A stretch of 64,000 bases of DNA from Arenicola marina (Eukaryota > Annelida > Polychaeta > Arenicolidae), in NCBI GenBank assembly GCA_964019135.1, contig OZ025249.1, positions 1,116,001-1,180,000 on the forward strand, read 5' to 3'. Below are positions 217-49,780 of the stretch, piece by piece. The notes beneath the pieces were generated by a model. That model was given only the letters and a program-made list of their open reading frames with translations. It searched no databases and was not told the origin of the DNA. The position numbers and the translations under genes are program-made. Numbering within the stretch: position 1 is the first letter of the stretch; each line of letters begins with the position of its first letter.

Positions 217-311
217 ATCTGTTGCAGAAAGTGTTCACCTCCGTCACCAGTCAAGGCCGCCATGCTGTACCAGAAAGCCTCTTCCGCCCCGGGGGGTGAC
301 CAGGCCACAAC
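217..311 (-). CDS. FAAH: FAAH exon 11, whose 5' half seeds the 70-bp array
   Basis: 95 nt, starting in phase 0 and ending with 2 nt over. The acceptor is tgtattgtag|GTTGTG and the donor CAGAT|GTAAGT. It encodes [19 protein letters not shown] and [12 protein letters not shown], matching FAAH L-V-P-F-x-P ... A-L-E-T-L and G-L-F-S-D-G-G-x-x-F-L-Q. The first 47 nt plus the acceptor are repeated seven more times upstream as the 70-bp array. The part below 264, with the donor, is single copy. Confidence 0.88.
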
Positions 312-3300
312 CTACAATACAGACAGCACCCTCACTGTACCAGAAAGCCTCTTCCGCCCCGGGGGGTGACCAGGCCACAACCTACAATTCAAACAACACC
401 CTCACTGTACCAGAAAGCCTCTTCCGCCCCGGGGGGTGACCAGGCCACAACCTACAATTCAAACAACACCCTCACTGTACCAGAAAGCCTCTTCCGCCCC
501 GGGGGGTGACCAGGCCACAACCTACAATACAGACAGCACCCTCACTGTACCAGAAAGCCTCTTCCGCCCCGGGGGGTGACCAGGCCACAACCTACAATTC
601 AAACAACACCCTCACTGTACCAGAAAGCCTCTTCCGCCCCGGGGGGTGACCAGGCCACAACCTACAATTCAAACAACACCCTCACTGTACCAGAAAGCCT
701 CTTCCGCCCCGGGGGGTGACCAGGCCACAACCTACAATTCAAACAACACCCTCACTGTACCAGAAAGCCTCTTCCGCCCCGGGGGGTGACTAGGCCACAA
801 CCAACAAAGCACTGGCCTCGTGACCTTGGCTCTCCAAAAGGTCCTTCGCTGCGCGAACCACTCTCACACAGGCCACAACCTACAAAGCACTGACCTCGTG
901 ACCTTGGCTCTCCAAAGGGTCCTTGGCTGCGCGAACCACTCTCACACAGGCTAAAACCTACAAAGCACTGACCTCGTGACCTTGCCTCTCCAAAACGTCC
1001 TTGGCTGCGTGAACCACTCTCACACAGGCCACAACCTACAAAGCACTGACCTCGTGACCTTGGCTCTCCAAAAGGTCCTTCGCTGCGTGAACCACTCTCA
1101 CACAGGCCACAACCTACAAAGCACTGACCTCGTGACCTTGCCTCTGCAAAAAGGTCCTTGGCTGCGCGAACCACTCTCACACAGGCCACAACCTACAAAG
1201 CACTGACCTCGTGACCTTGGCTCTCCAAAAGGTCCTTGGCTGCGCGAAACCACTCTCACACAGGCCACAACCTACCAAGCACTGACCACGTGACCTTGGC
1301 TCTCCAAAAGGTCCTTGGCTGCGCGAACCACTCTCACACAGGCCACAACCTACAAATCACTGACCTCGTGACCTTGCCTCTCCAAAAGGTCCTTGGCTGC
1401 GCGAACCACTCTAACACAGGCCACAACCTACAAAGCACTGACCTCGTGACCTTGGCTCTCCAAAAGGTCCTTGGCTGCGCGAACCACTCTCACACAGGCC
1501 ACAACCTACAAAGCACTGACCTCGTGACCTTGGCTCTCCAAAAGGTCCTTGGCTGCGCGAACCACTCTCACACAGGCCACAACCTACAAAGCACTGGCCT
1601 CGTGACCTTGGCTCTCCAATAGGTCCTTGGCTGCGCGAACCACTCTCACACAGGCCACAAGCTACAAAGCACTGACCTCGTGACCTTGGCTCTCCAAAAG
1701 GTCCTTGGCTGCGCGAACCACTCTCACACAGGCCACAACCTACAAAGCACTGACCTCGTGACCTTGGCTCTCCAAAAGGTCCTTAGCTGTGCGAACCACT
1801 CTCACACAGGCTACAAGCTACAAAGCACTGACCTCGTGACCTTGGCTCTCCAAAAGTTCCTTGGCTGCGCGAACCACTCTCACACAGGCCACAACCTACA
1901 AAGCACTGACCTCGTGACCTTGGCTCTCCAAAAGGTCCTTGGCTGCGCGAACCACTCTCACACAGGCCACAACCTACAAAGCACTGACCTCGTGATCTTG
2001 GCTCTCCAAAAGGTCCTTGGCTGCGTGAACCACTCTCACACAGGCCACAACCTACAAAGCACTGACCTCGTGACCTTGGCTCTCCAAAAGGTCCTTGGCT
2101 GCGCGAACCACGCTCACACAGGCCACAACCTACAAAGCACTGACCACGTGACCTTGGCTCTCCAAAAGGTCCTTGGCTGCGCGAACCACTCTCACACAGG
2201 CCACAACCTACAAAGCACTGACCTCGTGACCTTGGCTCTCCAAAAGGTCCTTGGCTGCGCGAACCACTCTCACACAGGCCACAACCTACAAAGCACTGAC
2301 CTCGTGACCTTGGCTCTCCAAAAGGTCTTTGGCTGCGCGAACCACTCTCACACAGGCTGGCGCGGCTTGGCACGCCCCATCGTCCAGGAAGAACCCGATT
2401 CGCAGACCACGCTTTGAGGCGTACACCTGGAACAAAATCATGCATATTGTTTTTTCTTTTGACATTATTTAGCATCAACAATAGTTTTCTGCAACTACCG
2501 TTTTTGAAATAGATCCTTTTTAGTCTTGTCTTTACGTCATTACCTAGTCATCAAGTTGTTTGAGGCCAAACATCTCAACATACCTCTTCGTTAAACGGTA
2601 ATGGTGGCACTTTGGGATCGGCTGAGAAGTGAGGAGTCGTCAGCAAATGGCGCAGAGCTCTCGCCAGGCCATCCACGTCACGCGAGAGTGGGCTGGACGA
2701 GCTGGTCACTGCAGCAGGAGGCCGGTATGCCGTGCGCAGTATCAGTACAATGAAACATTAAAAGTGCTGAGATGTGCAACAAATGTGTTCAAATGAATCA
2801 TATATCACTTATATCGGCATGGAATAGCTGAGCATTACACACTGGTACTGGACCAATGTATGGGATAGCTGAGCATTACACACTGGTACTGGACCAATGT
2901 ATGGGATAGCTGTCCATTGCAAAACTGGTACCGGACTGTGTATTGGATAGCTGAGCATTACACACTGGTATCGGACCATGTATGGGATAGCTGAGCATTA
3001 CACACTGGTACTGAACCAATGTATGGGATAGCTGAACATTACACACTGGTACTGAACCAATGTATGGGATAGCTGAGCATTGTAAACAATTAATTCACTG
3101 GACATATGATAAACAATGACCAAGATTTGTTTAATTCACGACAAGCAATCATGTACTGACCTAGGTTTTGTCCAATAAAGCCCGGTCTGCCTTTCGTACT
3201 GTGACAACAAAACCAAGCCTTTCGTTAACATTATTTAGTCTCTTTAAGTCGTGGCTTTAACGAGTAACTTTTTGCGTACATAAATCGCGTCAGTGAGGGA

Positions 3301-6300
3301 GTTAAATAGGAGAACTGCATAGCTACCGCTAAATGTAGACACAACCTGACACCTAAAAGTTGATAAACAATCATCAAAGCGATAGTTTACATTGCAAACA
3401 AATCGACACATAAGTCGGAAACAACTTCTGTTAAATTGGGAACAAATACATTTAAATATTAAACATATCGCAGCTTATATAAAATATAATTTATTAAATT
3501 AAAGATTAAAGAGCATTGACTATGAAGACACCATGGGTTAAAGGGTCTGGACTACAACGACATCGCGGATTAAAGGCTCTGAGCTACAAAGACATTACGG
3601 GTTAAAGGCTCTAGACTACAAAGACATTATGGATTAACAGGGTCTGGACTACAAAGACATCATCACATGCTCAGCTATCATATACACAAAGACATCACGG
3701 ATTAAACGGTCTGGACTACAAAAACATTATGGATTAATCGGTCTGGACTACCAAGGCATCATAGATTAAAGGGTCTGGACTACAAAGACATTATAGATTA
3801 AAGGGTCTTGACTACAAAGACATTATGGATTAAAGGGTCTGAACTATAAAGACATTATGGATTAAAGGGTGTGGACTACAAAGTCATTATAGATTAAAGG
3901 GTCTCGACTACAAAGACATTATGGATTAAAGGGTCTCGACTACAAAGACATGGATTAAAGGGTCTGGCGTACAAAGACATCACGGATTAAAAGGTCTGGA
4001 CTACAAAGACAGTATAGGTTAAAGGGTCTGGACTATAAAGACATTATGGATTAAAGGGTCTGGACTACAAAGACATAATAGAATAACGGGTCTGGACTAC
4101 AAAGACATTATAGATCAAAGGTTCTCGACTACAAAGACATCACGGATTAAAGGCTTTGGACTACAGAGACATTATTTATGAAAGGGCCTGGACTACAAAG
4201 ACATCACGGATTAAAGGGTCTGGACTACAGAGACATTATTTATGAAAGGGCCTGGACTACAAAGACATCACGGATTAAAGGGTCTGGACTACAAAGACAT
4301 TATGGATTAAAGGGTCTGGACTACAAAGACATTATAGATTAAAGGGTCTGGAGTACAAAGACCACGGATTAAAGGGTCTGGACTACAGAGACATTATAGA
4401 TTAAAGGGTCTCGACTACAAAAACATTATGGATTAAATGGTCTGGACTACAAAGATATGGATTAAAGGGTCTGAAGTACAAAGACATCACGGATTAAAGG
4501 CTTTGGACTACAAAGACATCACGGATTAAAGGCTTTGGCCTACAAAGATATCACGGATTAAAGGCTCTGGACTACAAAGACATGATGGATTAAAGGGTCT
4601 GGACTAAAAAGATATTATAGATTAAAGGGTCTGGAGTACAAAGACATGACGGATTAAAGGGTCTGGACTACCAAGACATTATAGATTAAAGGGTCTGGAC
4701 TACAAAGACATTATAGATGAAAGGGTCTGGACTACAAATACATCACGGATTAAAGGCTCTGGATTACAAAGACATCACGGATTAAAGGCTCTGGATTACA
4801 GATATATCACGGATTAAAGGCTCTGGACTACAGGGACATGACGGATTAAAGGGTCTGGACTACAAAGACATCACGGATTAAAGAGTCTGGACTACAAAGA
4901 CATGACGGATTAAAGGGTCTGGACTACAAATACATCACGGATTATATAGTGGACTACAAAGAAGTCTTCGATTAAAGAGCATTAACTACAAAGACATCTT
5001 CGATTCGAGGATCTAGATTAGAAAAGCATGGATTAAAGCACCTACATTACAAAAAAACATGGATTAAAGGGTCTGCACTACCATCACATATATTAAAGGG
5101 TCTGCACTACAGAAGTATAATGGGGTAAAGGGTTTGCACTACAAAGGCATCATGGAGTAAAGGGTTTGCACTACAGAGGCATCATGGAGTAAAGGGTCTT
5201 CACTACAGAAACATCATGGAGTAAAGGGTGTGTCTGGACTACAGCCTCCGGGATGTTGGCTTGGTGTGCTGCAACTCACACTTACCTCAGTCTCTTGGAG
5301 GTTGGCTTGATGGCACAAAGCCCACAGAAGGCAGCCGGGCACCGGATGCTGCCGCACGTGTCACTGCCGAACCCTAGCGGGGAGCCCCCCAGGGCCAGGA
5401 GGGCCCCCTCCCCGGAGGACGACCCCCCAGGACCACGTCGAGGGTCCAGAGGGTGCGTGGTCGTCCCAAATATCGGGTTTCCACTTTCGAAACTGAAAGT
5501 ATAAGACAATTAGCTCGTAGAAGGGAAGGGAGGTTACATGACAACTAAGAATGCCATTATATATATAACATATGGTTTGAAGACTCCAACCAATCAACAG
5601 TATACACACTAGTCCTCTGAGGCCTTTAACCAACCAACAATGTACCCACTAGTCCTCCGAGGCCTTTAACTAACCAACAGTGTACCCACTAGTCCTCTGA
5701 GGCCTTTAACCAACCAACAGTGTGCCCACTAGTCCTCTGAGGCCTTTAACCAACCAACAGTGCACCCACTAGTCCTCTGAGGCCTTTAACCAACCAACAG
5801 TGTACATACTAGTCCTCTGAGGCCTTTAACCAACCAACAGTGTACCCACTAGTCTTCTGAGGCCTTTAACCAACCAACAGTGTACCCACTAGTCCTCTGA
5901 CCAACCAACAGTGTACCCACTAGTCCTCTCAGGCTTTAACCAACCAACAGTGTACCCACTAGTCCTCTGCTGAAGCCTCGCCTACTTGCCTCATTCCTAA
6001 CTGCGGCATGTTTGTCCTGGCGAAGGGCACTGCCCCGAGTTCTTTCAGCGCCTGAAAGCACCATCACATCGTGTTAAACACAGGTAACACACTCCAAGAG
6101 ACCTCACTAGGTGGCAGCACATCATTTCATCGAGAACCAGAGTTGGGGTCCCCTAGAATTGGACTGGCTGGTTTCACGCACAAATGTCATAAATGTCACT
6201 ACGGCAGCAATATAAATATTGCTTTATTTACAAGCAGGCATAATATAGGCATTGCCATATACTGTGATCGTCCATTACGGTGACGTTAAACATATAATTC

Positions 6301-9300
6301 AAATAACACTTCCGCCGCTTCCTACGCGAAATTAATTAACCTGGTTAAGAACAAAATCGTAACCAGAGTAGTAAAGATAATAAACACAACAGCCACACCG
6401 TGTCAGACCCACGTAACACAGTATCTGAAGCCACACCGTGTCAGACCCAGGTAACACACTATCTGCAGCCACACCGTGTCAGACCCAGGTAACACAGTAT
6501 CTGAAGCCACACCGTGTCAGACCAAGGTAACACACTATCTGCAGCCACACCGTGTCAGACCCAGGTAACACATTATCTGAAGCCACACCGTGTCAGACCC
6601 AGGTAACACACTATCTGAAGCCACACCGTGTCAGACCCAGGTAACACACTATCTGCAGCCACACCGTGTCAGACCCAGGTAACACAGTATCTGAAGCCAC
6701 ACCGTGTCAGACCCAGGTAACACAGTATCTGAAGCCACACCGTGTCAGACCTAGGTAACACACTATCTGCAGCCACACCGTGTCAGACCCAGGTAACACA
6801 CTATCTGCAGCCACACCGTGTCAGACCCAGGTAACACAGTATCTGAAGCCACACCGTGTCAGACCCAGGTAACACACTATCTGCAGCCACACCATGTCAG
6901 ACCCAGGTAACACAGTATCTGAATCCATGCAGTGTCAGACCCAGGTAACACACTATCTGAAGCCACACCGTGTCAGACCCACGTAACACAGTATCTGAAG
7001 CCACACCGTGTCAGACCCAGGTAACACACTATCTGCAACCACACCGTGTCAGACCCAGGTAACACAGTATCTAAAGCCATACCGTGTCAGACCCGAGTTA
7101 CACACTATCTGCAGCCACACCGTGTCAGACCCAGGTAACACAGTATCTAAAGCCATACCGTGTCAGACCCGAGTTACACACTATCTGCAGCCACACCGTG
7201 TCAGACCCAGGTAACACAGTATCTAAAGCCATACCGTGTCAGACCCGAGTTACACACTATCTGCAGCCACACCGTGTCAGACCCAGGTAACACAGTATCT
7301 GCAGCCACACCGTGTCAGACCCAGGTAACACAGTATCTGCAGCCACACCGTGTCAGACCCAGGTAACACAGTATCTGCAGCCACACCGTGTCAGACCCAG
7401 GTGACACAGTATCTGAAGCCACACCGTGTCAGACCCAGGTAACACAGTATCTGCAGCCACACCGTGTCAGACCCAGGTAACACAGTATCTGAAGCCACAC
7501 CGTGTCAGACCCAGGTAACACAGTATCTAAAGCCACACCGTGTCAGACCCAGGTAACACAGTATCTAAAGCCATACCGTGTCAGACCCGAGTAACCCACA
7601 ATCTGCAGCCACACCGTGTCAGACCCAGGTAACACAGTATCTGCAGCCACACCGTGTCAGACCCAGGTAACACAGTATCTGAAGCCACACCGTGTCAGAC
7701 CCAGGTAACACAGTATCTGAAGCCACACCGTGTCAGAACCAGGTAACCCAGTATATGAAGCCACACCGTGTCAGACCCAGGTAAGACAGTATCTGAAGCC
7801 ACACCGTGTCAGACCCAGGTAACACAGTATCTGAAGCCACACCGTGGCAGACCCAGGTAACACAGTATCTGCAGCCACACCGTGTCAGACCCAGGTAACA
7901 CAGTATCTGCAGCCACACCGTGTCAGACCCAGGTAACACACTATCTGCAGCCACACCGTGTCAGACCCAGGTAACACAGTATCTGAAGCCACACCGTGTC
8001 AGACCCAGGTAACACACTATCTGCAGCCACACCATGTCAGACCCAGGTAACACAGTATCTGAATCCATGCTGTGTCAGACCCAGGTAACACACTATCTGA
8101 AGCCACACCGTGTCAGACCCAGGTAACACAGTATTTGAAGCCACACCGTGTCAGACCCAGGTAACACACTATCTGCAGCCACACCGTGTCAGACCCAGGT
8201 AACACAGTATCTGCAGCCACACCGTGTCAGACCCAGGTAACACAGTATCTGAAGCCACACCGTGTCAGACCCAGGTAACACAGTATCTGAAGCCACACCG
8301 TGTCAGACCCAGGTAACACAGTATCTAAAGCCACACCGTGTCAGACCCAGGTAACACAGTATCTAAAGCCATACCGTGTCAGACCCGAGTAACCCACTAT
8401 CTGCAGCCACACCGTGTCAGACCCAGGTAACACAGTATCTGCAGCCACACCGTGTCAGACCCAGGTAACACAGTATCTGAAGCCACACCGTGTCAGACCC
8501 AGGTAACACAGTATCTGAAGCCACACCGTGTCAGAACCAGGTAACACAGTATCTGAAGCCACACAGTGTCAGACCCAGGTAACACAGTATCTGAAGCCAC
8601 ACCGTGTCAGACCCAGGTAACACAGTATCTGAAGCCACACCGTGGCAGACCCAGGTAACACACTATCTGCAGCCACACCGTGTCAGACCCAGGTAACACA
8701 GTATCTGAAGCCACACCGTGTCAGAACCAGGTAACACAGTATCTGCAGCCACACCGTGTCAGACCCAGGTAACACAGTATCTGCAGCCACACCGTGTCAG
8801 ACCCAGGTAACACAGTATCTGCAGCCATATCGTGTCAGACCCAGGTAACACAGTATCTGAGACCACACCGTGTCAGACCCAGGTAACACAGTATCTGCAG
8901 CCATATCGTGTCAGACCCAGGTAACACAGTATCTGCAGCCACACCGTGTCAGACCCAGGTAACACAGTATCTGCAGCCACACCGTCTTAGACCCAGGTAA
9001 CGCAGTATCTGCAGCCATATCGTGTCAGACCAGGTAACACAGTATCTGCAGCCACACCGTGTCAAACCCAGGTAACACAGTATCTGAAGCCACACCGTGT
9101 CAGACCCAGGTAACACGGTACCTGAAGCCACACCGTGTCAGACCCAGGTAACACAGTATCTGAAGCCACACCGTGTCAGACCCAGGTAACACAGTATCTG
9201 CAGCCACACCGTGTCAGACCCAGGTAACACAGTATCTGCAGCCACACCGTGTCAGACCCAGGTAACACGGTATCTGAAGCCACACCGTGTCAGATCCAGG

Positions 9301-12300
9301 TAACACAGTATCTGCAGCCATATCGTGTCAGACCCAGGTAACACAGTATCTGCAGACACACCGTGTCAAACCCAGGTAACACAGTATCTGAAGCCACACC
9401 GTGTCAGACCCAGGTAACACAGTATCTGCAGCCACACCGTGTCAGACCCAGGTAACACACTATCTGCAGCCACACCGTGTCAGACCCAGGTGACACACTA
9501 TCTGAAGCCACACCGTGTCAGACCCAGGTAACACAGTATCTGAATCCACACCGTGTCAGACCCAGGTAACACAGTATCTGAAGCCACACCGTGTCAGAAC
9601 CAGGTAACACAGTATCTGCAGCCACACCGTGTCAGACCCAGGTAACACAGTATCTGAAGCCACACCGTGTCAGACCCAGGTAACACAGTATCTGAAGCCA
9701 CACCGTGTCAGACCCAGGTAAAACAGTATCTGAAGCCACACCGTGTCAGACCCATGTAACACAGTATCTGAAGCCACACCGTGTCAGACCCAGGTAACAC
9801 AGTATCTGAAGCCACACCGTGTCAGACCCAGGTAACACAGTATCTGCAGCCATATCGTGTCAGACCCAGGTAACACGAGTATCTGCAGCTACACCGTGTC
9901 AGACCCAGGTAACACAGTATCTGCAGCCATATCGTGTCAGACCTAGGTAACACAGTATCTGCAGCCATATCGTGTCAGACCCAGGTAACACGAGTATCTG
10001 CAGCCACACCGTGTCAGACCCAGATAACACAGTATCTGCAGCCATATCGTGTCAGACCCAGGTAACACAGTATCTGCAGCCACACCGTGTCAGACCCAGG
10101 TAACACTGTATCTAAAGCCATACCGTGTCAGACCCAGGTAACACAGTATCTGCAGCCACACCGTATCAGACCCAGGTAACACAGTATCCGCAGCCATATC
10201 GTGTCAGACCCAGGTAACACAGTATCTGCAGCCACACCGTGTCAGACCCAGGTAACACAGTATCTACAGCCATATCGTCTCAGACCCAGGTAACACAGTA
10301 TCTGAAGCCACACCGTGTCAGACCCAGGTAACACAGTATCTGAAGCCACACCGTGTCAGACCCAGGTAACACACTATCTGCAGCCATATCGTGTCGGACC
10401 CAGGTAACACAGTATCTGCAACCACACCGTGTCAGACCCAGGTAACACAGTATCTGCAGCCATATCGTGTCAGACCCAGGTAACACAGTATCTGAAGCCA
10501 CACCGTGTCAGACCCAGGTAACACAGTATCTGAAGCCACACCGTGTCAGACCCAGGTAACACACTATCTGCAGCCATATCGTGTCAGACCCAGGTAACAC
10601 AGTATCTGAAGCCACACCGTGTCAGACCTAGGTAACACAGTATCTGCAGCCATATAGTGTCAGACCCAGGTAACACAGTATCTGAAGCCACACCGCGTCA
10701 GACCCAGGTAACACAGTATCTGCAGCCACACCGTGTCAGACCCAGGTAACACAGTATCTGCAGCCATATCGTGTCAGACCCAGGTAACACAGTATCTGCA
10801 GCCACACCGTGTCAGACCCAGGTAACACAGTATCTGCAGCCACACCGTCTTAGACCCAGGTAACGCAGTATCTGCAGCCATATCGTGTCAGACCAGGTAA
10901 CACAGTATCTGCAGCCACACCGTGTCAAACCCAGGTAACACAGTATCTGAAGCCACACCGTGTCAGACCCAGGTAACACAGTATCTGCAGCCATATCGTG
11001 TCAGACCCAAGTAACACAGTATCTGCAGCCACACCGTGTCAGACCCAGGTAACACAGTATCTGCAGCCATACCGTGTCAGACCCAGGTAACACAGTATCT
11101 GAAGCCACACCGTGTCAGACCCAGGTAACACAGTATCTGCAGCCATATCGTGTCAGACCCAAGTAACACAGTATCTGCAGCCACACCGTGTCAGACCCAG
11201 GTAACACAGTATCTGAAGCCACACCGTGTCAGACCCAGGTAACACAGTATCTAAAGCCATACCGTGTCAGACCCGAGTAACCCACTATCTGCAGCCACAC
11301 CGTGTCAGACCCAGGTAACACAGTATCTGCAGCCACACCGTGTCAGACCCAGGTAACACAGTATCTGAAGCCACACCGTGTCAGACCCAGGTAACACAGT
11401 ATCTGAAGCCACACCGTGTCAGAACCAGGTAACCCAGTATCTGAAGCCACACCGTGTCAGACCCAGGTAAGACAGTATCTGAAGCCACACCGTGTCAGAC
11501 CCAGGTAACACAGTATCTGAAGCCACACCGTGGCAGACCCAGGTAACACAGTATCTGCAGCCACACCGTGTCAGACCCAGGTAACACAGTATCTGCAGCC
11601 ACACCGTGTCAGACCCAGGTAACACACTATCTGCAGCCACACCGTGTCAGACCCAGGTAACACAGTATCTGAAGCCACACCGTGTCAGACCCAGGTAACA
11701 CACTATCTGCAGCCACACCATGTCAGACCCAGGTAACACAGTATCTGAATCCATGCAGTGTCAGACCCAGGTAACACACTATCTGAAGCCACACCGTGTC
11801 AGACCCAGGTAACACAGTATCTGAAGCCACACCGTGTCAGACCTAGGTAACACACTATCTGCAGCCACACCGTGTCAGACCCAGGTAACACAGTATCTGC
11901 AGCCACACCGTGTCAGACCCAGGTAACACAGTATCTGAAGCCACACCGTGTCAAACCCAGGTAACACAGTATCTGAAGCCACACCGTGTCAGACCCAGGT
12001 AACACAGTATCTGAAGCCACACCGTGTCAGACCCAGGTAACACAGTATCTAAAGCCACACCGTGTCAGACCCAGGTAACACAGTATCTAAAGCCATACCG
12101 TGTCAGACCCGAGTAACCCACTATCTGCAGCCACACCGTGTCAGACCCAGGTAACACAATATCTGCAGCCACACCGTGTCAGACCCAGGTAACACAGTAT
12201 CTGAAGCCACACCGTGTCAGACCCAGGTAACACAGTATCTGAAGCCACACCGTGTCAGAACCAGGTAACACAGTATCTGAAGCCACACCGTGTCAGACCC

Positions 12301-15300
12301 AGGTAACACAGTATCTGAAGCCACACCGTGTCAGACCCAGGTAACACAGTATCTGAAGCCACACCGTGGCAGACCCAGGTAACACAGTATCTGCAGCCAC
12401 ACCGTGTCAGACCCAGGTAACACAGTATCTGAAGCCACACCGTGTCTGACCCAGGTAACACAGTATCTGCAGCCACACCGTGTCAGACCCAGGTAACACA
12501 GTATCTGCAGCCACACCGTGTCAGACCCAGGTAACACACTATCTGAAGCCACACCGTGTCAGCCACAGGTAACACAGTATCTGAAGCCACACCGTGTCAG
12601 ACCCAGGTAACACAGTATCTGAAGCCACACCGTGTCAGACCCAGGTGACACAGTATCTGAAGCCACACCGTGTCAGACCCAGGTAACACAGTATCTGCAG
12701 CCACACCGTGTCAGACCCAGGTAACACAGTATCTGAAGCCACACCGTGTCAGATCCAGGTAACACAGTATCTGCGGCCACACCGTGTCAGACCCAGGTAA
12801 CACGGTACCTGAAGCCACACCGTGTCAGACCCAGGTAACACAGTATCTGAAGCCACACCGTGTCAGACCCAGGTAACACAGTATCTGCAGCCACACCGTG
12901 TCAGACCCAGGTAACACAGTATCTGCAGCCACACCGTGTCAGACCCAGGTAACACGGTATCTGAAGCCACACCGTGTCAGATCCAGGTAACACAGTATCT
13001 GCAGCCATATCGTGTCAGACCCAGGTAACACAGTATCCGCAGACACACCGTGTCAAACCCAGGTAACACAGTATCTGAAGCCACACCGTGTCAGACCCAG
13101 GTAACACAGAATCTGCAGCCACACCGTGTCAGACCCAGGTAACACACTATCTGCAGCCACACCGTGTCAGACCCAGGTAACACAGTATCTGAAGCCACAC
13201 CGTGTCAGACCCAGGTAACACAGTATCTGCAGCCACACCGTGTCAGACCCAGGTGACACACTATCTGAAGCCACACCGTGTCAGACCCAGGTAACACAGT
13301 ATCTGAAGCCACACCGTGTCAGATCCAGGTAACACACTATCTGAAGCCACACCGTGTCAGACCCAGGTAACACGGTACCTGAAGCCACACCGTGTCAGAC
13401 CCAGGTAACACAGTATCTGAAGCCACACCGTGTCAGACCCAGGTAACACAGTATCTGCAGCCACACCGTGTCAGACCCAGGTAACACAGTATCTGCAGCC
13501 ACACCGTGTCAGACCCAGGTAACACGGTATCTGATGCCACACCGTGTCAGATCCAGGTAACACAGTATCTGCAGCCATATCGTGTCAGACCCAGGTAACA
13601 CAGTATCTGCAGACACACCGTGTCAAACCCAGGTGACACAGTATCTGCAGCCACACCGTGTCAGACCCAGGTAACACGGTACCTGAAGCCACACCGTGTC
13701 AGACCCAGGTAACACAGTATCTGAAGCCACACCGTGTCAGACCCAGGTAACACAGTATCTGCAGCCACACCGTGTCAGACCCAGGTAACACAGTATCTGC
13801 AGCCACACCGTGTCAGACCCAGGTAACACACTATCTGAAGCCACACCGTGTCAGCCACAGGTAACACAGTATCTGAAGCCACACCGTGTCAGACCCAGGT
13901 AACACAGTATCTGAAGCCACACCGTGTCAGACCCAGGTGACACAGTATCTGAAGCCACACCGTGTCAGACCCAGGTAACACAGTATCTGCAGCCACACCG
14001 TGTCAGACCCAGGTAACACAGTATCTGAAGCCACACCGTGTCAGATCCAGGTAACACAGTATCTGCAGCCACACCGTGTCAGACCCAGGTAACACGGTAC
14101 CTGAAGCCACACCGTGTCAGACCCAGGTAACACAGTATCTGAAGCCACACCGTGTCAGACCCAGGTAACACAGTATCTGCAGCCACACCGTGTCAGACCC
14201 AGGTAACACAGTATCTGCAGCCACACCGTGTCAGACCCAGGTAACACGGTATCTGAAGCCACACCGTGTCAGATCCAGGTAACACAGTATCTGCAGCCAT
14301 ATCGTGTCAGACCCAGGTAACACAGTATCTGCAGACACACCGTGTCAAACCCAGGTAACACAGTATCTGAAGCCACACCGTGTCAGACCCAGGTAACACA
14401 GTATCTGAAGCCACACCGTGTCAGACCCAGGTAACACAGTATCTGCAGCCACACCGTGTCAGACCCAGGTAACACAGTATCTGCAGCCACACCGTGTCAG
14501 ACCCAGGTAACACGGTATCTGATGCCACACCGTGTCAGATCCAGGTAACACAGTATCTGCAGCCATATCGTGTCAGACCCAGGTAACACAGTATCTGCAG
14601 ACACACCGTGTCAAACCCAGGTGACACACTATCTGCAGCCACACCGTGTCAGACCCAGGTAACACGGTACCTGAAGCCACACCGTGTCAGACCCAGGTAA
14701 CACAGTATCTGAAGCCACACCGTGTCAGACCCAGGTAACACAGTATCTGCAGCCACACCGTGTCAGACCCAGGTAACACAGTATCTGCAGCCACACCGTG
14801 TCAGACCCAGGTAACACACTATCTGAAGCCACACCGTGTCAGCCACAGGTAACACAGTATCTGAAGCCACACCGTGTCAGACCCAGGTAACACAGTATCT
14901 GAAGCCACACCGTGTCAGACCCAGGTGACACAGTATCTGAAGCCACACCGTGTCAGACCCAGGTAACACAGTATCTGCAGCCACACCGTGTCAGACCCAG
15001 GTAACACAGTATCTGAAGCCACACCGTGTCAGATCCAGGTAACACAGTATCTGCAGCCACACCGTGTCAGACCCAGGTAACACGGTACCTGAAGCCACAC
15101 CGTGTCAGACCCAGGTAACACAGTATCTGAAGCCACACCGTGTCAGACCCAGGTAACACAGTATCTGCAGCCACACCGTGTCAGACCCAGGTAACACAGT
15201 ATCTGCAGCCACACCGTGTCAGACCCAGGTAACACGGTATCTGAAGCCACACCGTGTCAGATCCAGGTAACACAGTATCTGCAGCCATATCGTGTCAGAC

Positions 15301-18300
15301 CCAGGTAACACAGTATCTGCAGACACACCGTGTCAAACCCAGGTAACACAGTATCTGAAGCCACACCGTGTCAGACCCAGGTAACACAGAATCTGCAGCC
15401 ACACCGTGTCAGACCCAGGTAACACACTATCTGCAGCCACACCGTGTCAGACCCAGGTGACACACTATCTGAAGCCACACCGTGTCAGACCCAGGTAACA
15501 CAGTATCTGAAGCCACACCGTGTCAGATCCAGGTAACACACTATCTGAAGCCACACCGTGTCAGACCCAGGTAACACGGTACCTGAAGCCACACCGTGTC
15601 AGACCCAGGTAACACAGTATCTGAAGCCACACCGTGTCAGACCCAGGTAACACAGTATCTGAAGCCACACCGTGTCAGACCCAGGTAACACAGTATCTGC
15701 AGCCACACCGTGTCAGACCCAGGTAACACGGTATCTGATGCCACACCGTGTCAGATCCAGGTAACACAGTATCTGCAGCCATATCGTGTCAGACCCAGGT
15801 AACACAGTATCTGCAGACACACCGTGTCAAACCCAGGTGACACAGTATCTGCAGCCACACCGTGTCAGACCCAGGTAACACGGTACCTGAAGCCACACCG
15901 TGTCAGACCCAGGTAACACAGTATCTGAAGCCACACCGTGTCAGACCCAGGTAACACAGTATCTGCAGCCACACCGTGTCAGACCCAGGTAACACGGTAT
16001 CTGAAGCCACACCGTGTCAGATCCAGGTAACACAGTATCTGCAGCCATATCGTGTCAGACCCAGGTAACACAGTATCTGCAGACACACCGTGTCAAACCC
16101 AGGTAACACAGTATCTGAAGCCACACCGTGTCAGACCCAGGTAACACAGTATCTGAAGCCACACCGTGTCAGACCCAGGTAACACAGTATCTGAATCCAC
16201 ACCGTGTCAGACCCAGGTAACACAGTATCTGAAGCCACACCGTGTCAGAACCAGGTAACACAGTATCTGCAGCCACACCGTGTCAGACCCAGGTAACACA
16301 GTATCTGAAGCCACACCGTGTCAGACCCAGGTAACACAGTATCTGAAGCCACACCGTGTCAGACCCAGGTAACACAGTATCTGAAGCCACACCGTGTCAG
16401 ACCCATGTAACACAGTATCTGAAGCCACACCGTGTCAGAACCAGGTAACACAGTATCTGCAGCCACACCGTGTCAGACCCAGGTAACACAGTATCTGAAG
16501 CCACACCGTGTCAGACCCAGGTAACACAGTATCTGAAGCCACACCGTGTCAGACCCAGGTAACACAGTATCTGAAGCCACACCGTGTCAGACCCATGTAA
16601 CACAGTATCTGAAGCCACACCGTGTCAGACCCAGGTAACACAGTATCTGAAGCCACACCGTGTCAGACCCAGGTAACACAGTATCTGCAGCCATATCGTG
16701 TCAGACCCAGGTAACACGAGTATCTGCAGCTACACCGTGTCAGACCCAGGTAACACAGTATCTGCAGCCATATCGTGTCAGACCCAGGTAACACGAGTAT
16801 CTGCAGCCACACCGTGTCAGACCCAGAGAACACAGTATCTGCAGCCATATCGTGTCAGACCCAGGTAACACAGTATCTGCAGCCACACCGTGTCAGACCC
16901 AGGTAACACAGTATCTAAAGCCATACCGTGTCAGACCCAGAGAACACAGTATCTGCAGCCATATCGTGTCAGACCCAGGTAACACAGTATCTGCAGCCAC
17001 ACCGTGTCAGACCCAGGTAACACAGTATCTAAAGCCATACCGTGTCAGACCCAGGTAACACAGTATCTGCAGCCACACCGTATCAGACCCAGGTAACACA
17101 GTATCCGCAGCCATATCGTGTCAGACCCAGGTAACACAGTATCTGAAGCCATACCGTGTCAGACCCAGGTAACACAGTATCTGCAGCCATATCGTGTCAG
17201 ACCCAGGTAACACAGTATCTGAAGCCACACCGTGTCAGACCCAGGTAACACAGTATCTGAAGCCACACCGTGTCAGACCCAGGTAACACACTATCTGCAG
17301 CCATATCGTGTCGGACCCAGGTAACACAGTATCTGCAACCACACCGTGTCAGACCCAGGTAACACAGTATCTGCAGCCATATCGTGTCAGACCCAGGTAA
17401 CACAGTATCTGAAGCCACACCGTGTCAGACCCAGGTAACACAGTATCTGAAGCCACACCGTGTCAGACCCAGGTAACACACTATCTGCAGCCATATCGTG
17501 TCAGACCCAGGTAACACAGTATCTGAAGCCACACCGTGTCAGACCTAGGTAACACAGTATCTGCAGCCATATAGTGTCAGACCCAGGTAACACAGTATCT
17601 GAAGCCACACCGCGTCAGACCCAGGTAACACAGAATCTGCAGCCACACCGTGTCAGACCCAGGTAACACAGTATCTGCAGCCATATCGTGTCAGACCCAG
17701 GTAACACAGTATCTGCAGCCACACCGTGTCAGACCCAGGTAACACAGTATCTGCAGCCACACCGTCTTAGACCCAGGTAACGCAGTATCTGCAGCCATAT
17801 CGTGTCAGACCAGGTAACACAGTATCTGCAGCCACACCGTGTCAAACCCAGGTAACACAGTATCTGAAGCCACACCGTGTCAGACCCAGGTAACACAGTA
17901 TCTGCAGCCATATCGTGTCAGACCCAAGTAACACAGTATCTGCAGCCACACCGTGTCAGACCCAGGTAACACAGTATCTGCAGCCATACCGTGTCAGACC
18001 CAGGCAACACAGTATCTGAAGCCACACCGTGTCAGACCCAGGTAACACAGTATCTGCAGCCATATCGTGTCAGACCCAAGTAACACAGTATCTGCAGCCA
18101 CACCGTGTCAGACCCAGGTAACACAGTATCTGCAGCCACACCGTGTCAGACCCAGGTAACACACTATCTGCAGCCACACCGTGTCAGACCCAGGTAACAC
18201 AGTATCTGCAGCAATATCGTGTCAGACCCAGGTAACACAGTATCTGAAGCCACACCGTGTCAGACCCAGGTAACACAGTATCTGCAGCCACACCGTGTCA

Positions 18301-21300
18301 GACCCAGGTAACACAGTATCTGCAGCCATATCGTGTCAGACCCAGGTAACACAGTATCTGCAGCCACACCGTGTCAGACCCAGGTAACACAGTATCTGCA
18401 GCCACACCGTCTCAGACCCAGGTAACGCAGTATCTGCAGCCATATCGTGTCAGACCAGGTAACACAGTATCTGCAGCCACACCGTGTCAGACCCAGGTAA
18501 CACAGTATCTGAAGCCACACCGTGTCAGACCCAGGTAACACAGTATCTGCAGCCATATCGTGTCAGACCCAGGTAACACAGTATCTGAAGCCACACCGTG
18601 TCAGACCCAGGTAACACAGTATCTGCAGCCATATCGTCTCGGACCCAGGTAACACAGTATCTGAAGCCACACCGTGTCAGACCCAGGTAACACACTATCT
18701 GCAGCCATATCGTGTCAGACCCAGGTAACACAGTATCTGCAGCCACACCGTGTCAGACCCAGGTAACACAGTATCTGCAGCAATATCGTGTCAGACCCAG
18801 GTAACACAATATCTGAAGCCACACCGTGTCAGACCCAGGTAACACAGTATCTGCAGCCACACCGTGTCAGACCCAGGTAACACAGTATCTGCAGCCATAT
18901 CGTGTCAGACCCAGGTAACACAGTATCTGCAGCCACACCGTGTCAGACCCAGGTAACACAGTATCTGCAGCCACACCGTCTCAGACCCAGGTAACGCAGT
19001 ATCTGCAGCCATATCGTGTCAGACCAGGTAACACAGTATCTGCAGCCACACCGTGTCAGACCCAGGTAACACAGTATCTGCAGCCACACCGTGTCAGACC
19101 CAGGTAACACAGTATCTGCAGCCATATCGTGTCAGACCCAGGTAACACAGTATCTGCAGCCACACCGTGTCAGACCCAGGTAACACAGTATCTGCAGCCA
19201 TATCGTGTCAGACCCAGGTAACACAGTATCTGAAGCCACACCGTGTCAGACCCAGGTAACACAGTATCTGCAGCCACACCGTGTCAGACCCAGGTAACAC
19301 AGTATCTGCAGCCACACCGTCTCAGAGCCAGGTAACGCAGTATCTGCAGCCATATCGTGTCAGACCAGGTAACACAGTATCTGCAGCCACACCGTGTCAG
19401 ACCCAGGTAACACAGTATCTGAAGCCACACCGTGTCAGACCCAGGTAACACAGTATCTGCAGCCATATCGTGTCAGACCCAGGTAACACAGTATCTGCAG
19501 CCACACCGTGTCAGACCCAGGTAACACAGTATCTGCAGCCACACCGTGTCAGACCCAGGTAACACAGTATCTGCAGCCACACCGTGTCAGACCCAGGTAA
19601 CACAGTATCCGCAGCCATATCGTGTCAGACCCAGGTAACACAGTATCTGAAGCCACACCGTGTCAGACCCAGGCAACACAGTATCTGCAGCCATATCGTG
19701 TCAGACCCAGGTAACACAGTATCTGAAGCCACACCGTGTCAGACCCAGGTAACACACTATCTGCAGCCATATCGTGTCGGACCCAGGTAACACAGTATCT
19801 GCAGCCATACCGTGTCAGACCCAGGTAACACAGTATCTGCAGCCACACCGTGTCAGACCCAGGTAACACAGTATCCGCAGCCATATCGTGTCAGACCCAG
19901 GTAACACAGTATCTGCAGCCACACCGTGTCAGACCCAGGTAACACAGTATCTGCAGCCATATCGTGTCAGACCCAGGTAACACAGTATCTGAAGCCACAC
20001 CGTGTCAGACCCAGGTAACACAGTATCTGAAGCCACACCGTGTCAGACCCAGGTAACACACTATCTGCAGCCATATCGTGTCGGACCCAGGTAACACAGT
20101 ATCTGAAGCCCCACCGTGTCAGACCCAGGTAACACAGTATCTAAAGCCATATCGTGTCAGACCCAGGTAACACAGTATCTGAAGCCACACCGTGTCAGAC
20201 CCAGGTAACACAGTATCTGAAGCCACACCGTGTCAGACCCAGGTAACACACTATCTGCAGCCATATCGTGTCAGACCCAGGTAACACAGTATCTGCAGCC
20301 ACACCGTGTCAGACCCAGGTAACACAGTATCTGCAGCAATATCGTGTCAGACCCAGGTAACACAGTATCTGAAGCCACACCGTGTCAGACCCAGGTAACT
20401 CAGTATCTGCAGCCACACCGTGTCAGACCCAGGTAACACAGTATCTGCAGCCATATCGTGTCAGACCCAGGTAACACAGTATCTGCAGCCACACCGTGTC
20501 AGACCCAGGTAACACAGTATCTGCAGCCACACCGTCTCAGACCCAGGTAACGCAGTATCTGCAGCCATATCGTGTCAGACCAGGTAACACAGTATCTGCA
20601 GCCACACCGTGTCAGACCCAGGTAACACAGTATCTGAAGCCACACCGTGTCAGACCCAGGTAACACACTATCTGCAGCCATATCGTGTCAGACCCAGGTA
20701 ACACAGTATCTGAAGCCACACCGTGTCAGACCCAGGTAACACAGTATCCGCAGCCATATCGTGTCAGACCCAGGTAACACAGTATCTGAAGCCACACCGT
20801 GTCAGACCCAGGTAACACAGTATCTGCAGCCATATCGTGTCAGACCAGGTAACACAGTATCTGCAGCCACACCGTGTCAGACCCAGGTAACACAGTATCT
20901 GCAGCCACACCGTGTCAGACCCAGGTAACACAGTATCTGCAGCCATATCGTGTCAGACCCAGGTAACACAGTATCTGCAGCCACACCGTCTCAGACCCAG
21001 GTAACACAGTATCTGCAGCCATATCGTGTCAGACCAGGTAACACAGTATCTGCAGCCATATCGTACCTCTACCACTGCACAGTCCCTGCTGTACGGCTCG
21101 CCAAGGCGGCACGCGCTGCCCTCCGTGCTGTCGTGGCCCTGTCGGCATCAAGGTCATCATCATCTCATCCATGTAACTGAACCCGGGTACAAGGTTAATT
21201 ATTAAACCGGTCATCCGACTTCACCCAGTAATAACTTCAACCTCATTCAATCCTATCTGGCTGCCCTCAGTAATAACTTTAAACCTACCTGGCCGCACCC

Positions 21301-24300
21301 AGTAATAACTTTAACCCTATCTGGCTGCCCTCAGTAATAACTTCAACCTCATTCAATCCTATCTGGCTGCCCTCAGTAATAACTTTAAACCTACCTGGCC
21401 GCACCCAGTAATAACTTTAACCCTATCTGGCTGCCCTCAGTAATAACTTTAAACCTACCTGGCCGTACCCAGTAATAACTTTAACCCTATCTGGCTGCAT
21501 CCAGTAATAACTTTAACCCTATCTGGCTGCATCCAGTAATAACTTCAAACCTATCTGGCTGCATCCAGTAATAAACTCAATCCTATCTGGCCGCACCCAA
21601 TAATAACTTCAATCCTATCTGGCCGCACCCAGTAATAAACTCAATCCTATCTGGCCGCACCCAGTAATAACTTCAATCCTATCTGGCCGCACCCAGTAAT
21701 AACTTCAAACCTATCTGGCCACACCCAGTAATAACTTCAATCCTATCTGGCTGCATCCAGTAATAACTTCAAACCTATCTGGCTGCATCCAGTAATAACT
21801 TCAATCCTATCTGGCCGCACCCAATAATAACTTCAATCCTATCTGGCCGCACCCAGTAATAAACTCAATCCTATCTGGCCGCACCCAGTAATAACTTCAA
21901 TCCTATCTGGCCACACCCAGTAATAACTTCAATCCTATCTGGCCGCACCCAGTAATAACTTCAATCCTATCTGGCTGCATCCAGTAATAAACTCAATCCT
22001 ATCTGGCCACACCCAGTAATAACTTCAATCCTATCTGGCCGCACCCAGTAATAACTTCAATCCTATCTGGCTGCATCCAGTAATAACTTCAATCCTATCT
22101 GGCCGCACCCAGTAATAATTTCAATCATATCTGGCTGCTCCCAGGAATTACTTCAATCCTATCTGGCTGCATCCAGTAATAACTTCAATCCTATCTGGTC
22201 GCACCCAGTAATAACTTCAACGAACCACGTGGCGTGTAGTTTGACCTTCAATATAGTGGTTATTGCCGTGGCATTAGGCGATGATGTCAGTGTGCTCACC
22301 TTGACCGGGAAGTTGTCCTTGAGGCTGACGGGGACACCAAACAGGGCTCCGCGCCGACCAGCCCGCATCAAATCCTGTGCCCATTCCTGATTGGACAGAA
22401 CTGGACATGTGTCAACAATAACAACTAGCGGCATGAACTTGGTACCTTACATTACCACTCGTACTATTATTAGCACGTAGAAATGTGACACCGAGTGTCA
22501 CATCTGGACTCAATCGATGACATTCTGTGTCACAGTTCCATCGATGACATCCTGTGTCACAGCTCCATCGATGACATCCTGTCACAGTTCCATCGATGAC
22601 ATCCTGTGTCACAGTTCCATCGATGACATCCTGAGTCACAGTTCCATCGATGTCATCCTGTGTGACAGCTCCATCGATGACATCCTGTGTCACAGTTCCA
22701 TCGATGTCATCCTGAGTGACAGCTCCATCGATGACATTCTGTGTCACAGTTCCATCGATGTCATCCTGAGTCACAGTTCCATCGATGACATTCTGTGTCA
22801 CAGTTCCATCGATGTCATCCTGTGTGACAGCTCCATCGATGACATCCTGTGTCACAGTTCCATCGATGTCATCCTGAGTGACAGCTCCATCGATGACATT
22901 CTGTGTCACAGTTCCATCGATGTCATCCTGAGTCACAGTTCCATCGATGACATTCTGTGTCACAGTTCCATCGATGTCATCCTGTGTGACAGCTCCATCG
23001 ATGACATCCTGTGTCACAGTTCTATCGATGTCATCCTGAGTCACAGTTCCATCGATGACATTCTGTGTCACAGTTCCATCGATGACATCCTGAGTCACAG
23101 TTCCATCGATGACATCCTGAGTCATAGCTCCATCGATGACATCCTGTGCCACAGTTCCATCGATGACATCCTGAGTCACAGTTCCATCGATGACATTCTG
23201 TGTCACAGTTCCATCGATGTCATCCTGTGTGACAGCTCCATCGACGACATCCTGTGTCACAGTTCCATCGATGACATCCTGAGTCATAGCTCCATCGATG
23301 ACATCCTGTGTCACAGTTCCATCGATGACATCCTGAGTCACAGTTCCATCGATGACATTCTGTGTCACAGTTCCATCGATGTCATCCTGTGTGACAGCTC
23401 CATCGTTGACATCCTGTGTCACAGTTCCATCGATGACATCCTGAGTCACAGCTCCATCGATGACATCCTGTGTCACAGTTCCATCGATGACATCCTGAGT
23501 CACAGCTCCATCGATGACATCCTGTGTGACAGCTCCATTGATGGCCTTGTTTTTATGCGATATCCAATGTTGTGTCCATGCTTTATATTACATTTCCCAA
23601 AGACTAAATACATTCAGAGTGAACTTTAATAGTGATTCATTTAGAATTATGTTTACTATATTCTATATGACTTACCTCACTTTCATCAATGAACTCGATC
23701 AAGCAGTTTGTTTTTTGGTGGGCTGCCAGGGCCTACAAAAATAAATATAAATACAACTATTCGCATTCGCGTGGATGTCTAGCATCATTATTACTGAGTC
23801 TCCTGGTCGTGCGTGTCACGTGTAGTTTATCAAACCTAAGCTCGTCGTCCCCGGATCTGCTGACAGTACGGAAAGCCTAATGGTAAGAACAATGTATAAA
23901 GGGAGATAATACGGCCTTTCGGGTCGTTGATATGGGGAAACACTCCAACCACTGACTTCACAATGAGACGGCGGCGCGAGACCCTGTTACACGCGCCATC
24001 TGGCGGACCACATCACACGGGGCGCATTAGGATGAAGTTTCAGCGGACTGAGGAGAGGCCGCGGCACGAGCAGTGTCAGCGGACTGAGGCCGCGGCACGA
24101 GCAGTGTCAGCGGACTGAGGCCGCGGCACGAGCAGTGTCAGCGGACTGAGGAGAGGCCGCGGCACGAGCAGTGTCAGCGGACTGAGGAGAGGCCGCGGCA
24201 CGAGCAGTGTCAGCGGACTGAGGAGAGGCCGCGGCACGAGCAGTGTCAGCGGACTAAGGAGAGGCCGCGGCACGAGCAGTGTCAGCGGACTGAGGAGAGG

Positions 24301-27300
24301 CCGCGGCACGAGCAGTGTCAGCGGACTGAGGAGAGGCCGCGGCACGAGCAGTGTCAGCGGACTGAGGAGAGGCTGCAGCACGAGCAGTGTCAGCGGACTG
24401 AGGAGAGGCCGCGGCACGAGCAGTGTCAGCGGACTGAGGAGAGGCCGCGGCACGAGCAGTGTCAGCGGACTGAGGAGAGGCCGCGGCACGAGCAGTGTCA
24501 GCGAACTGAGGAGAGGCCGCGGCACGAGCAGTGTCAGCGGACTAAGGAGAGGCCGCGGCACGAGCAGTGTCAGCGGACCGAGGAGAGGCCGCGGCACGAG
24601 CAGTGTCAGCGGACTGAGGAGAGGCCGCGGCACGAGCAGTGTCAGCGGACTGAGGAGAGGCCGCGACACGAGCAGTGTCAGCGGACTAAGGAGAGGCCGC
24701 GGCACGAGCAGTGTCAGCGGACTGAGGAGAGGCCGCGGCACGAGCAGTGTCAGCGGACTGAGGAGAGGCCGCGGCACGAGCAGTGTCAGCGGACTGAGGA
24801 GAGGCCGCGGCACGAGCAGTGTCAGCGGACTGAGGAGAGGCCGCGGCACGAGCAGTGTCAGCGGCCTGAGGAGAGGCCGCGGCACGAGCAGTGTCAGCGG
24901 ACTGAGGAGAGGCCGCGGCACGAGCAGTGTCAGCGGACTGAGGAGAGGCCGCGGCACGAGCAGTGTCAGCGGACTGAGGAGAGGCCGCGGCACGAGCAGT
25001 GTCAGCGGACTGAGGAGAGGCCGCGGCACGAGCAGTGTCAGCGGACTAAGGAGAGGCCGCGGCACGAGCAGTGTCAGCGGACCGAGGAGAGGCCGCGGCA
25101 CGAGCAGTGTCAGCGGCCTGAGGAGAGGCCGCGGCACGAGCAGTGTCAGCGGACTGAGGAGAGGCCGCGGCACGCGCAGTGTCAGCGGACTGAGGCCGCG
25201 ACACGAGCAGTGTCAGCGGACTAAGGAGAGGCCGCGGCACGAGCAGTGTCAGCGGACTGAGGAGAGGCCGCGGCACGAGCAGTGTCAGCGGACTGAGGAG
25301 AGGCCGCGGCACGAGCAGTGTCAGCGGACTGAGGAGAGGCCGCGGCACGAGCAGTGTCAGCGGACTGAGGAGAGGCCGCGGCACGAGCAGTGTCAGCGGA
25401 CTGAGGAGAGGCCGCGGCACGAGCAGTGTCAGCGGACTAAGGAGAGGCCGCGGCACGAGCAGTGTCAGCGGACCGAGGAGAGGCCGCGGCACGAGCAGTG
25501 TCAGCGGCCTGAGGAGAGGCCGCGGCACGAGCAGTGTCAGCGGACTGAGGAGAGGCCGCGGCACGCGCAGTGTCAGCGGACTGAGGCCGCGACACGAGCA
25601 GTGTCAGCGGACTAAGGAGAGGCCGCGGCACGAGCAGTGTCAGCGGACTGAGGAGAGGCCGCGGCACGAGCAGTGTCAGCGGACTGAGGAGAGGCCGCGG
25701 CACGAGCAGTGTCAGCGGCCTGAGGAGAGGCCGCGACACGAGCAGTGTCAGCGGACTGAGGAGAGGCCGCGGCATGAGCAGTGTCAGCGGACTGAGGAGA
25801 GGCCGCGGCACGAGCAGTGTCAGCGGACTGAGGAGAGGCCGCGACACGAGCAGTGTCAGCGGACTGAGGAGAGGCCGCGGCACGAGCAGTGTCAGCGGAC
25901 TGAGGCCGCGACACGAGCAGTGTCAGCGGACTGAGGAGAGGCCGCGGCACGAGCAGTGTCAGCGGACTGAGGAGAGGCCGCGGCACGAGCAGTGTCAGCG
26001 GACTGAGGCCGCGGCACGAGCAGTGTCAGCGGACTGAGGAGAGGCCGCGGCACGAGCAGTGTCAGCGGACTGAGGAGAGGCCGCGACACGAGCAGTGTCA
26101 GCGGACTGAGGCCGCGGCACGAGCAGTGTCAGCGGACTGAGGAGAGGCCGCGGCACGAGCAGTGTTAGCGGACTGAGGAGAGGCCGCGGCACGAGCAGTG
26201 TCAGCGGACTGAGGCCGCGGCACGAGCAGTGTCAGCGGACTGAGGCCGCGGCACGAGCAGTGTCAGCGGACTGAGGAGAGGCCGCGGCACGAGCAGTGTC
26301 AGCGGACTGAGGAGAGGCCGCGGCACGAGCAGTGTCAGCGGCCTGAGGAGAGGCCGCGGCACGAGCAGTGTCAGCGGACTGAGGAGAGGCTGCGGCACGA
26401 GCAGTGTCAGCGGACTGAGGCCGCGGCACGAGCAGTGTCAGCGGCCTGAGGAGAGGCCGCGGCACGAGCAGTGTCAGCGGCCTGAGGAGAGGCCGCGGCA
26501 CGAGCAGTGTCAGCGGCCTGAGGAGAGGCCGCGGCACGAGCAGTGTCAGCGGACTGAGGAGAGGCCGCGGCACGAGCAGTGTCAGCGGACTGAGGCCGCG
26601 GCACGAGCAGTGTCAGCGGACTGAGGCCGCGGCACGAGCAGTGTCAGCGGACTGAGGAGAGGCCGCGGCACGAGCAGGGTCAGCGGACTGAGGAGAGGCC
26701 GCGGCACGAGCAGTGTCAGCGGACTGAGGCCGCGGCACGAGCAGTGTCAGCGGACTGAGGAGAGGCTGCGGCACGAGCAGTGTCAGCGGACTGAGGCCGC
26801 GGCACGAGCAGTGTCAGCGGACTGAGGAGAGGCCGCGGCACGAGCAGTGTCAGCGGACTGAGGAGAGGCCGCGGCACGAGCAGTGTCAGCGGCCTGAGGA
26901 GAGGCCGCGACACGAGCAGTGTCAGCGGACTGAGGAGAGGCCGCGGCACGAGCAGTGTCAGCGGACTGAGGAGAGGCCGCGGCACGAGCAGTGTCAGCGG
27001 ACTGAGGAGAGGCCGCGGCACGAGCAGTGTCAGCGGACTGAGGCCGCGGCACGAGCAGTGTCAGCGGACTGAGGCCGCGGCACGCGCAGTGTCAGCAGAC
27101 TGAGGCCGCGGCACGAGCAGTGTCAGCGGACTGAGGAGAGGCCGCGGCACGAGCAGTTTCAGCGGACTGAGGAGAGGCCGCGGCACGAGCAGTGTCAGCG
27201 GACTGAGGAGAGGCCGCGGCACGAGCAGTGTCAGCGGATTGAGGCCGCGGCACGAGCAGTGTCAGCGGACTGAGGCCGCGGCACGATCAGTGTCAGCGGG

Positions 27301-49512: not shown

Positions 49513-49780
49513 AGCCAAATTGCGTTCCGACGGCAGGACCTGCAAGTGGCGGGTGAAGGGGGTGCCGCTGGGGTTATAGGCCGGGCGCTGGCCAGAGACC
49601 GGGTGTCCGACCAAACGGAGCGCTGACCAGTAACCGGGGGACCGACCTATGGGCGCGCCGGATCCAGAAGGCCCAGCCGCGTGGGTCTGCGAGGCTTGTA
49701 GCCGGAGAGGGAAGAGACGAGAGGAAGAGAGGCGACTGGGGCCTAATTACTTAGAATTACTAATAGTAATTCTAGACAAT
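49513..49780 (-). repeat. Split direct repeat A1, with the empty site of the TIR transposon
   Basis: 268 bp. It carries an uninterrupted gtagccggagaggg where A2 holds the CCGG-flanked transposon. It ends in tctagacaat against satellite aactggagca. It forms the minus-strand 5' terminus of the element. Confidence 0.88.

Follow-up and report, generated by a model that had tools for sequence, protein, structure and literature searches.

Exon-edge minisatellites fill intron 10 of a predicted FAAH-like gene in Arenicola marina

Introduction

In amphioxus, minisatellite-like tandem repeats known as mirages run across the exon-intron boundary in units of 10-160 bp, with AG/GT in many units and with either boundary affected; they are described in Adh3, troponin C, the globin genes BflGb6 and BflGb9 and PGBD5, their features include length polymorphism or somatic instability, and the reported results suggest that regular splicing is undisturbed (PMC3087553, PMC3902484). 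In the chicken, mostly on dot chromosomes, exon stuttering is described, in which introns usually each have their own expanded motif and some motifs are copied from the adjacent exon edge with its splice site; the exon part measures 20-187 bp in 1-44 copies, its source lies at most 1 base from the border in >90% of cases, and the word 'mirage' is absent from the paper's main text (PMC12954441). In the Cryptococcus gene CNN00420, repeats hold exon ends and a full-length intron (about 107 nt), and repeat expansion adds annotated introns, with a copy number that varies (PMC2395259). One minisatellite of C. elegans is enriched near multiple alternative splicing decisions (PMC4039745).

Here we describe two arrays in intron 10 of a predicted FAAH-like gene of the annelid Arenicola marina, within a 64,000-nucleotide stretch of contig OZ025249.1 that we call the window. 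In human genes, the IFI6 (6-16) minisatellite has multiple splice donors, with donors only repeated, and the LPA kringle IV-2 repeat has kilobase-long units with exons that are genuinely used; the FAAH array resembles both in that their repeats, which are variable in copy number, carry splice sites. An original prediction, made from the DNA letters, held that arrays built from an exon plus both splice sites had not been described at such a copy number. This does not hold in general, as the mirages, exon stuttering and the Cryptococcus repeat are all known. The open-access literature, to which the original Adh3 and troponin C papers may add closer cases, gave us no described array of 20 copies whose unit combines the edges of both exons with a complete in-frame exon and its two splice sites, nor, with the same reservation about those two papers, a described intron made wholly of two such arrays. 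The FAAH array thus looks like a known kind of runaway repeat, unusual in a unit that spans both edges and in the two arrays that fill the intron.

Results and discussion

Exons 1-11 of the gene lie on the minus strand of the window, in a predicted model that we built by hand from protein homology and splice consensus.

217..41093, minus strand, FAAH-like gene, exons 1-11 (predicted)
41093-40839, minus strand, exon 1 (hand-built model, as for exons 2-9)
35606-35496, minus strand, exon 2
23732-23676, minus strand, exon 3
22386-22300, minus strand, exon 4
21138-21067, minus strand, exon 5
6051-5990, minus strand, exon 6
5492-5286, minus strand, exon 7
3198-3161, minus strand, exon 8
2708-2584, minus strand, exon 9
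2301..2426, minus strand, exon 10, 126 nt, ends in phase 0 (donor GAG|GTCAGT, first intron base 2300)
312..2300, minus strand, intron 10, 1989 nt, 100% covered by two arrays (tandem-repeat coverage)
217..311, minus strand, exon 11, 95 nt (acceptor CTGTCTGTATTGTAG| ending at 312)

The predicted model has 17 exons and 16 introns in total. Exons 2-11 join in frame and, once exon 1 is added, give 411 residues without a stop, and exons 12-17, found in the flanking 20 kb (L014, L015), reach a terminal stop codon; the 17-exon gene therefore looks intact. The model protein matches the Pfam Amidase family (PF01425) with an E value of 1.2e-78, and the partial protein matches solved FAAH chains with an E value of about 1e-47. 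Its best relatives in protein searches, P0121 among them, are only 51% identical. In a tree of 19 rows, 18 of them hand-picked from search matches, the window protein pairs only with P0121 (94/98, which is below the tool's star) and stands outside both the vertebrate rows (100/97) and those of the tunicates (100/99). A search of Rfam at gathering scores gave no match. Intron 6 of the hand-built model is an apparent GC-AG intron, with GAG|GCAAGT at 5989.

All 1989 of the 1989 nt of intron 10 belong to two tandem arrays, a 78-bp array that forms the 5' part and a 70-bp array that forms the 3' part, and the arrays also take in the last part of exon 10 and the first part of exon 11.

795..2356, minus strand, 78-bp array, 20 copies (Tandem Repeats Finder: 792-2357, 20.1 copies, 95% matches)
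265..807, minus strand, 70-bp array, 7.8 copies (Tandem Repeats Finder)
2353..2357, minus strand, GCCTG in exon 10, at the start of the first unit (printed sequences)
301..305, minus strand, GCCTG in exon 11 (printed sequences)

The first of these arrays is the one that had been predicted, as 20 copies of 78 bp in FAAH intron 10 at 795..2426. Tandem Repeats Finder and a readout of all 20 units on the minus strand bear out its period, copy number and start, but not its end: the array stops at about 2357, and 2426 is instead the base at which exon 10 begins. The second array, 70 bp x 7.8 at 265-807, had gone unmentioned.

Both units are built from the exon edges. The 78-bp consensus unit consists of the last 56 nt of exon 10 (57 nt by alignment, with one shared G counted), the segment GTCAGTGCTTTGTAG and GTTGTGG, the first 7 nt of exon 11, such that GTCAGTGCTTTGTAG is a 15-nt GT...AG remnant between the exon 10 and exon 11 parts. 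The 70-bp unit combines the first 46-47 nt of exon 11 with 23-24 nt of acceptor region, and its final copy is exon 11 itself (311-265). Among its six inner copies, the acceptor types follow the order A A B A A B, a pattern suggesting that a 210-bp block was duplicated recently. With 60 shuffles per edge as the control, the end of exon 10 scores 109 and the start of exon 11 scores 94 in intron 10, compared to shuffle maxima of 22-24; thus, these exon copies are not due to chance. Over all 16 introns (32 tests), searched in introns 1, 2 and 5 through the first and last 2 kb, only intron 10 has exon edges far above the shuffles.

The copies of the 78-bp unit are very similar to each other, with a mean pairwise identity of 96.2% once the two 1-nt insertions are removed, which points to recent expansion or homogenisation. 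Neighbouring units differ at 2.95 positions and distant units at 2.97 (P = 0.46), and the order of the units carries no signal; the nearest-neighbour pattern of simple slippage is therefore absent. In a search of the genome with 306 bases of the array, we obtained at least 7 matches, every one of them within this array. It is conceivable that repeat copies were created or miscounted in assembly, since short repeats are error-prone and we have a single assembly of a single haplotype. However, the units differ by 22 distinct variants and two insertions, and the frame of the gene is open on either side, and we regard such an artefact as very improbable.

The sequence GCCTG is common to exon 10, exon 11 and the join of the 78-bp unit. 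The sharing of this motif by the join and both exons suggests a microhomology-mediated duplication, with GCCTG as the likely microhomology of the founding event. We propose that each minisatellite of intron 10 began when an exon-intron boundary was duplicated in tandem. The source of the 78-bp unit would have been the last 56-57 nt of exon 10 through the first 7 nt of exon 11, enclosing an intron that had shrunk to 15 nt, with its ends joined at the 5-bp microhomology, and the 70-bp unit would have been copied from the exon 11 acceptor region and the first 46-47 nt of that exon. Both arrays may then have grown by slippage or unequal exchange, as the separate arrays in 12 other introns of this gene may also have done.

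A different origin would be an intron gain of the Rogers type, in which an AG|GT proto-splice site was duplicated in tandem and the array is itself the new intron 10. The composition of the intron, two arrays of exon-boundary copies and nothing else, fits such an origin; yet the 15-nt GT...AG segment is non-exonic and lies precisely where the two exons meet, which points instead to a shrunken older intron. We consider a Rogers-type gain unlikely; it concerns the origin of the intron, and is compatible with what we propose below for its splicing.

The 78-bp units were predicted to be cassette exons, every one with an acceptor, 63 open nucleotides and a donor. We defined a candidate cassette as the acceptor of unit k together with the donor of unit k+1, which gives 19 candidates, as unit 1 (2356-2279) starts with the real exon 10 end. 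All three elements, an AG, an open 63-nt frame and a GT, are intact in 15 of the 19, and four candidates are defective. Frameshifting insertions of 1 nt are found in units 15 and 16 (2 of the 20 units), the GT is lost in units 10 and 20, and the AG is also lost in unit 20, such that GT is present in 18/20 units and AG in 19/20. The 63-nt piece from acceptor to next donor encodes 21 residues and, as predicted, is in phase 0 with exon 10 when translated, while the consensus 15-nt segment, if left unspliced, brings an in-frame stop (GTC AGT GCT TTG TAG). From the authentic donor, 14 of the intact candidates can be reached with an intron of at least 30 nt. The predicted spacing also stands: only 15 nt lie between units, so neighbouring units could hardly both be included, as 15 nt is too short for ordinary splicing given the minimum size of animal introns, and any included units would be non-adjacent.

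We find no sign that the frame of these units is under selection. The 78-bp units hold 18 distinct variants in their 63 exonic sites and 4 in their 15 intronic sites, an equal density. Synonymous changes account for 6 of the 18 exonic variants, compared to 4.3 expected under the same mutation types (P = 0.24), and none of the 18 makes a stop, compared to 0.55 expected. Thus, selection on the 63-nt frame is not detected, in a set of 18 variants that gives little power. Variant density and the synonymous share, taken together with the insertions and the donor losses, make the copies look neutral.

The internal splice sites resemble the true sites of the gene. In later units, 15 of the 19 donors are identical to the true donor (GAGGTCAGT). 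Of 15 positions at each acceptor, 7-9 are pyrimidines within the 78-bp array and 9-10 within the 70-bp array, compared to 10 at the true acceptor of intron 10 and 8-12 at nine other acceptors of the gene, and the longest pyrimidine run is 3-4 at internal acceptors and 3 at the true one. The comparison of splice sites that had been suggested for the units is therefore not decisive, with most donors equal to the true one and the acceptors of the 78-bp array only slightly poorer in pyrimidines. We rejected weak internal acceptors as an argument against cassettes, because their range overlaps with that of the gene's true acceptors. We also rejected recursive splicing at AG|GTTGTG, as by eye the GT that follows the acceptor has no donor consensus.

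We enumerated the transcripts that the internal sites could give. The repeat types supply 25 donors and 26 acceptors, which can be combined into 309 single-intron outcomes with an intron of at least 30 nt, and only one of these, the outermost pair, is open and in frame. When the authentic outer sites are kept and a single additional exon of 20-200 nt is allowed between them, the same site types give 45 paths, of which 14 are open, all of them with a 63-nt exon. Nearly every other use of internal sites is destructive.

These counts bear on two functional interpretations of the array. In the first, the units are alternative cassette exons, and one or more non-adjacent 63-nt pieces would each add 21 residues between the helix that precedes the exon 10/11 junction and the strand that follows it. 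In its favour are the intact AG, open frame and GT of 15 of the 19 candidates, the 14 of 45 one-extra-exon paths that stay open and in frame, always with the 63-nt exon, and internal splice sites comparable to the true sites of the gene. Against it, purifying selection on the frame is undetected, a 63-nt length would be in frame by chance one time in three, and insertion would duplicate a helix inside a conserved amidase fold. Protein searches are uninformative on the inclusion of units because the best relatives are so distant. Use of the units as cassette exons is unsupported, given that selection on the frame is not seen and that 1/309 single-intron outcomes is open, and we think it improbable.

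In the second interpretation, unproductive splicing lets the array reduce or tune FAAH output: internal donors and acceptors would be used at some rate, their stop-carrying products would be degraded, and copy number would set expression. The loss of frame or an encounter with a stop in 308 of the 309 counted single-intron outcomes is consistent with this idea, as is the identity of most internal donors with the true donor. On the other side, the cited amphioxus cases suggest undisturbed splicing. We doubt that the array acts in this way.

A combined form, in which the array acts as a bank of optional exons that varies in copy number, with non-adjacent units occasionally spliced in, nearly all other uses giving degraded RNA and array length setting FAAH isoforms and level, seems to us highly unlikely. 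If it were true, array length should vary between individuals and should set both the isoforms and the level of FAAH.

We favour the explanation that two boundary-seeded minisatellites fill intron 10, that the intron is most likely removed whole and that the internal sites are decoys, and we consider this explanation probable. Splicing would most likely join the first donor (2300) to the last acceptor (312), with all 1989 nt lost as a single intron. Since most internal donors equal the true one and the internal acceptors lie in or close to the range of true acceptors, no sequence feature that we tested explains the choice of the outermost pair. FAAH intron 10 is a natural test of how the spliceosome chooses among 25 donors and 26 acceptors that are alike, a test in which a working protein comes from the outermost pair only.

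Like the amphioxus mirages, the FAAH arrays cross exon-intron boundaries and carry AG/GT in many units; unlike them, both boundaries of intron 10 are repeated, the arrays make up the entire intron, and the 78-bp unit, in 20 copies, reaches across the edges of both exons and includes a whole mini-intron. At the best Adh3-like locus of this genome, a match below the family cut-off, no repeat in the span exceeds a score of 50; there is one 16-nt repeat with a score of 30, and the tandem-repeat fraction is 0.01. As in chicken exon stuttering, intron 10 holds copies of the adjacent edges above a shuffled control (109 and 94 versus 22-24), and the introns are heavily covered by repeats (37,320/39,642 nt of introns 1-10). 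The FAAH array differs from stuttering in that its 78-bp unit has a donor and an acceptor, whereas the chicken paper reports a donor or an acceptor, and in that, unlike the genes of the chicken dot chromosomes, the window FAAH gene is on a 61.5-Mb contig and falls outside the vertebrate rows of the tree. The FAAH array works like stuttering, but we do not class it as the avian phenomenon. Similarly, the FAAH unit spans an exon end, an intron and an exon start, as does the Cryptococcus CNN00420 repeat, but the intron within the FAAH unit is 15 nt and the copies sit inside an intron.

Repeat expansion is widespread in this gene. Introns 1-10 are 94% tandem repeat, and 13 of the 16 introns have an array, the exceptions being introns 9, 12 (one 2-copy repeat) and 13; thus, expansion is not peculiar to intron 10.

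35632-40790, intron 1 minisatellite, 55 bp
24036-35161, intron 2 minisatellite, 36 bp
22513-23543, intron 3 minisatellite, 27 bp
21246-22220, intron 4 minisatellite, 32 bp
6390-21058, intron 5 array, 38 bp x 386, 14.7 kb, 98% of the intron, starting 8 nt past exon 5
5588-5969, intron 6 minisatellite, 40 bp
3504-5229, intron 7 minisatellite, 32 bp
2819-3081, intron 8 minisatellite, 41 bp

Three introns of the gene have further features of note. Just past the donor of intron 7, at 5242-5266, there is one diverged 25-nt partial copy of the end of exon 7 (score 25 compared to a shuffle maximum of 20), which is perhaps an early or decayed exon-edge duplication. The 3' end of intron 5 (about 6060-6095) resembles, by eye, a degenerate copy of the 38-bp unit. 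Intron 14 (L014:5375-7555), in the flanking sequence, has 70-bp arrays of 24 and 7 copies with several larger periods, in which no exon sequence is found above shuffles.

Tandem repeats are also frequent elsewhere in the genome (867 Mb in 762 contigs), as judged from stretches whose places were fixed by hand and are not random (L017-L032, L034-L043). Sixteen 10-kb stretches, at position 2 or 5 Mb on contigs 1-12, have a mean tandem-repeat fraction of 0.64, with 10 of the 16 at 0.70 or above; ten stretches of 3 kb, nearer to mid-contig on contigs 1-8, have a mean of 0.44, with 3 of the 10 at 0.70 or above. Three window-adjacent stretches (0.82, 0.91 and 1.00) and the Adh3-like locus (0.01) stand outside these averages. 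The largest arrays of the sampled stretches mostly have a period of about 20-100 bp, and if these stretches are typical, about half of the genome would be minisatellite. A subtelomeric position was rejected as the sole cause of the repeats, because stretches far from contig ends still average 0.44.

In FAAH intron 10, exon edges have been amplified in a unit that also holds a complete mini-intron, within a genome where tandem repeats make up about half of the stretches sampled. Such an expansion in a repeat-rich genome raises the possibility that amphioxus mirages and chicken stuttering are one process, and it suggests a route by which introns may lengthen, move or yield new exons.

Elsewhere in the window, a 40-bp array occupies 49778-64000, up to the window end, and an array of period 40 fills the next 10 kb (L033); if these are one array, its length is at least 24 kb. 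An open frame at 47240-47914 has, by eye, a zinc-finger-like region rich in C and H and is retroelement gag-like; it has no Pfam match at E 0.1, and a protein search found five relatives.
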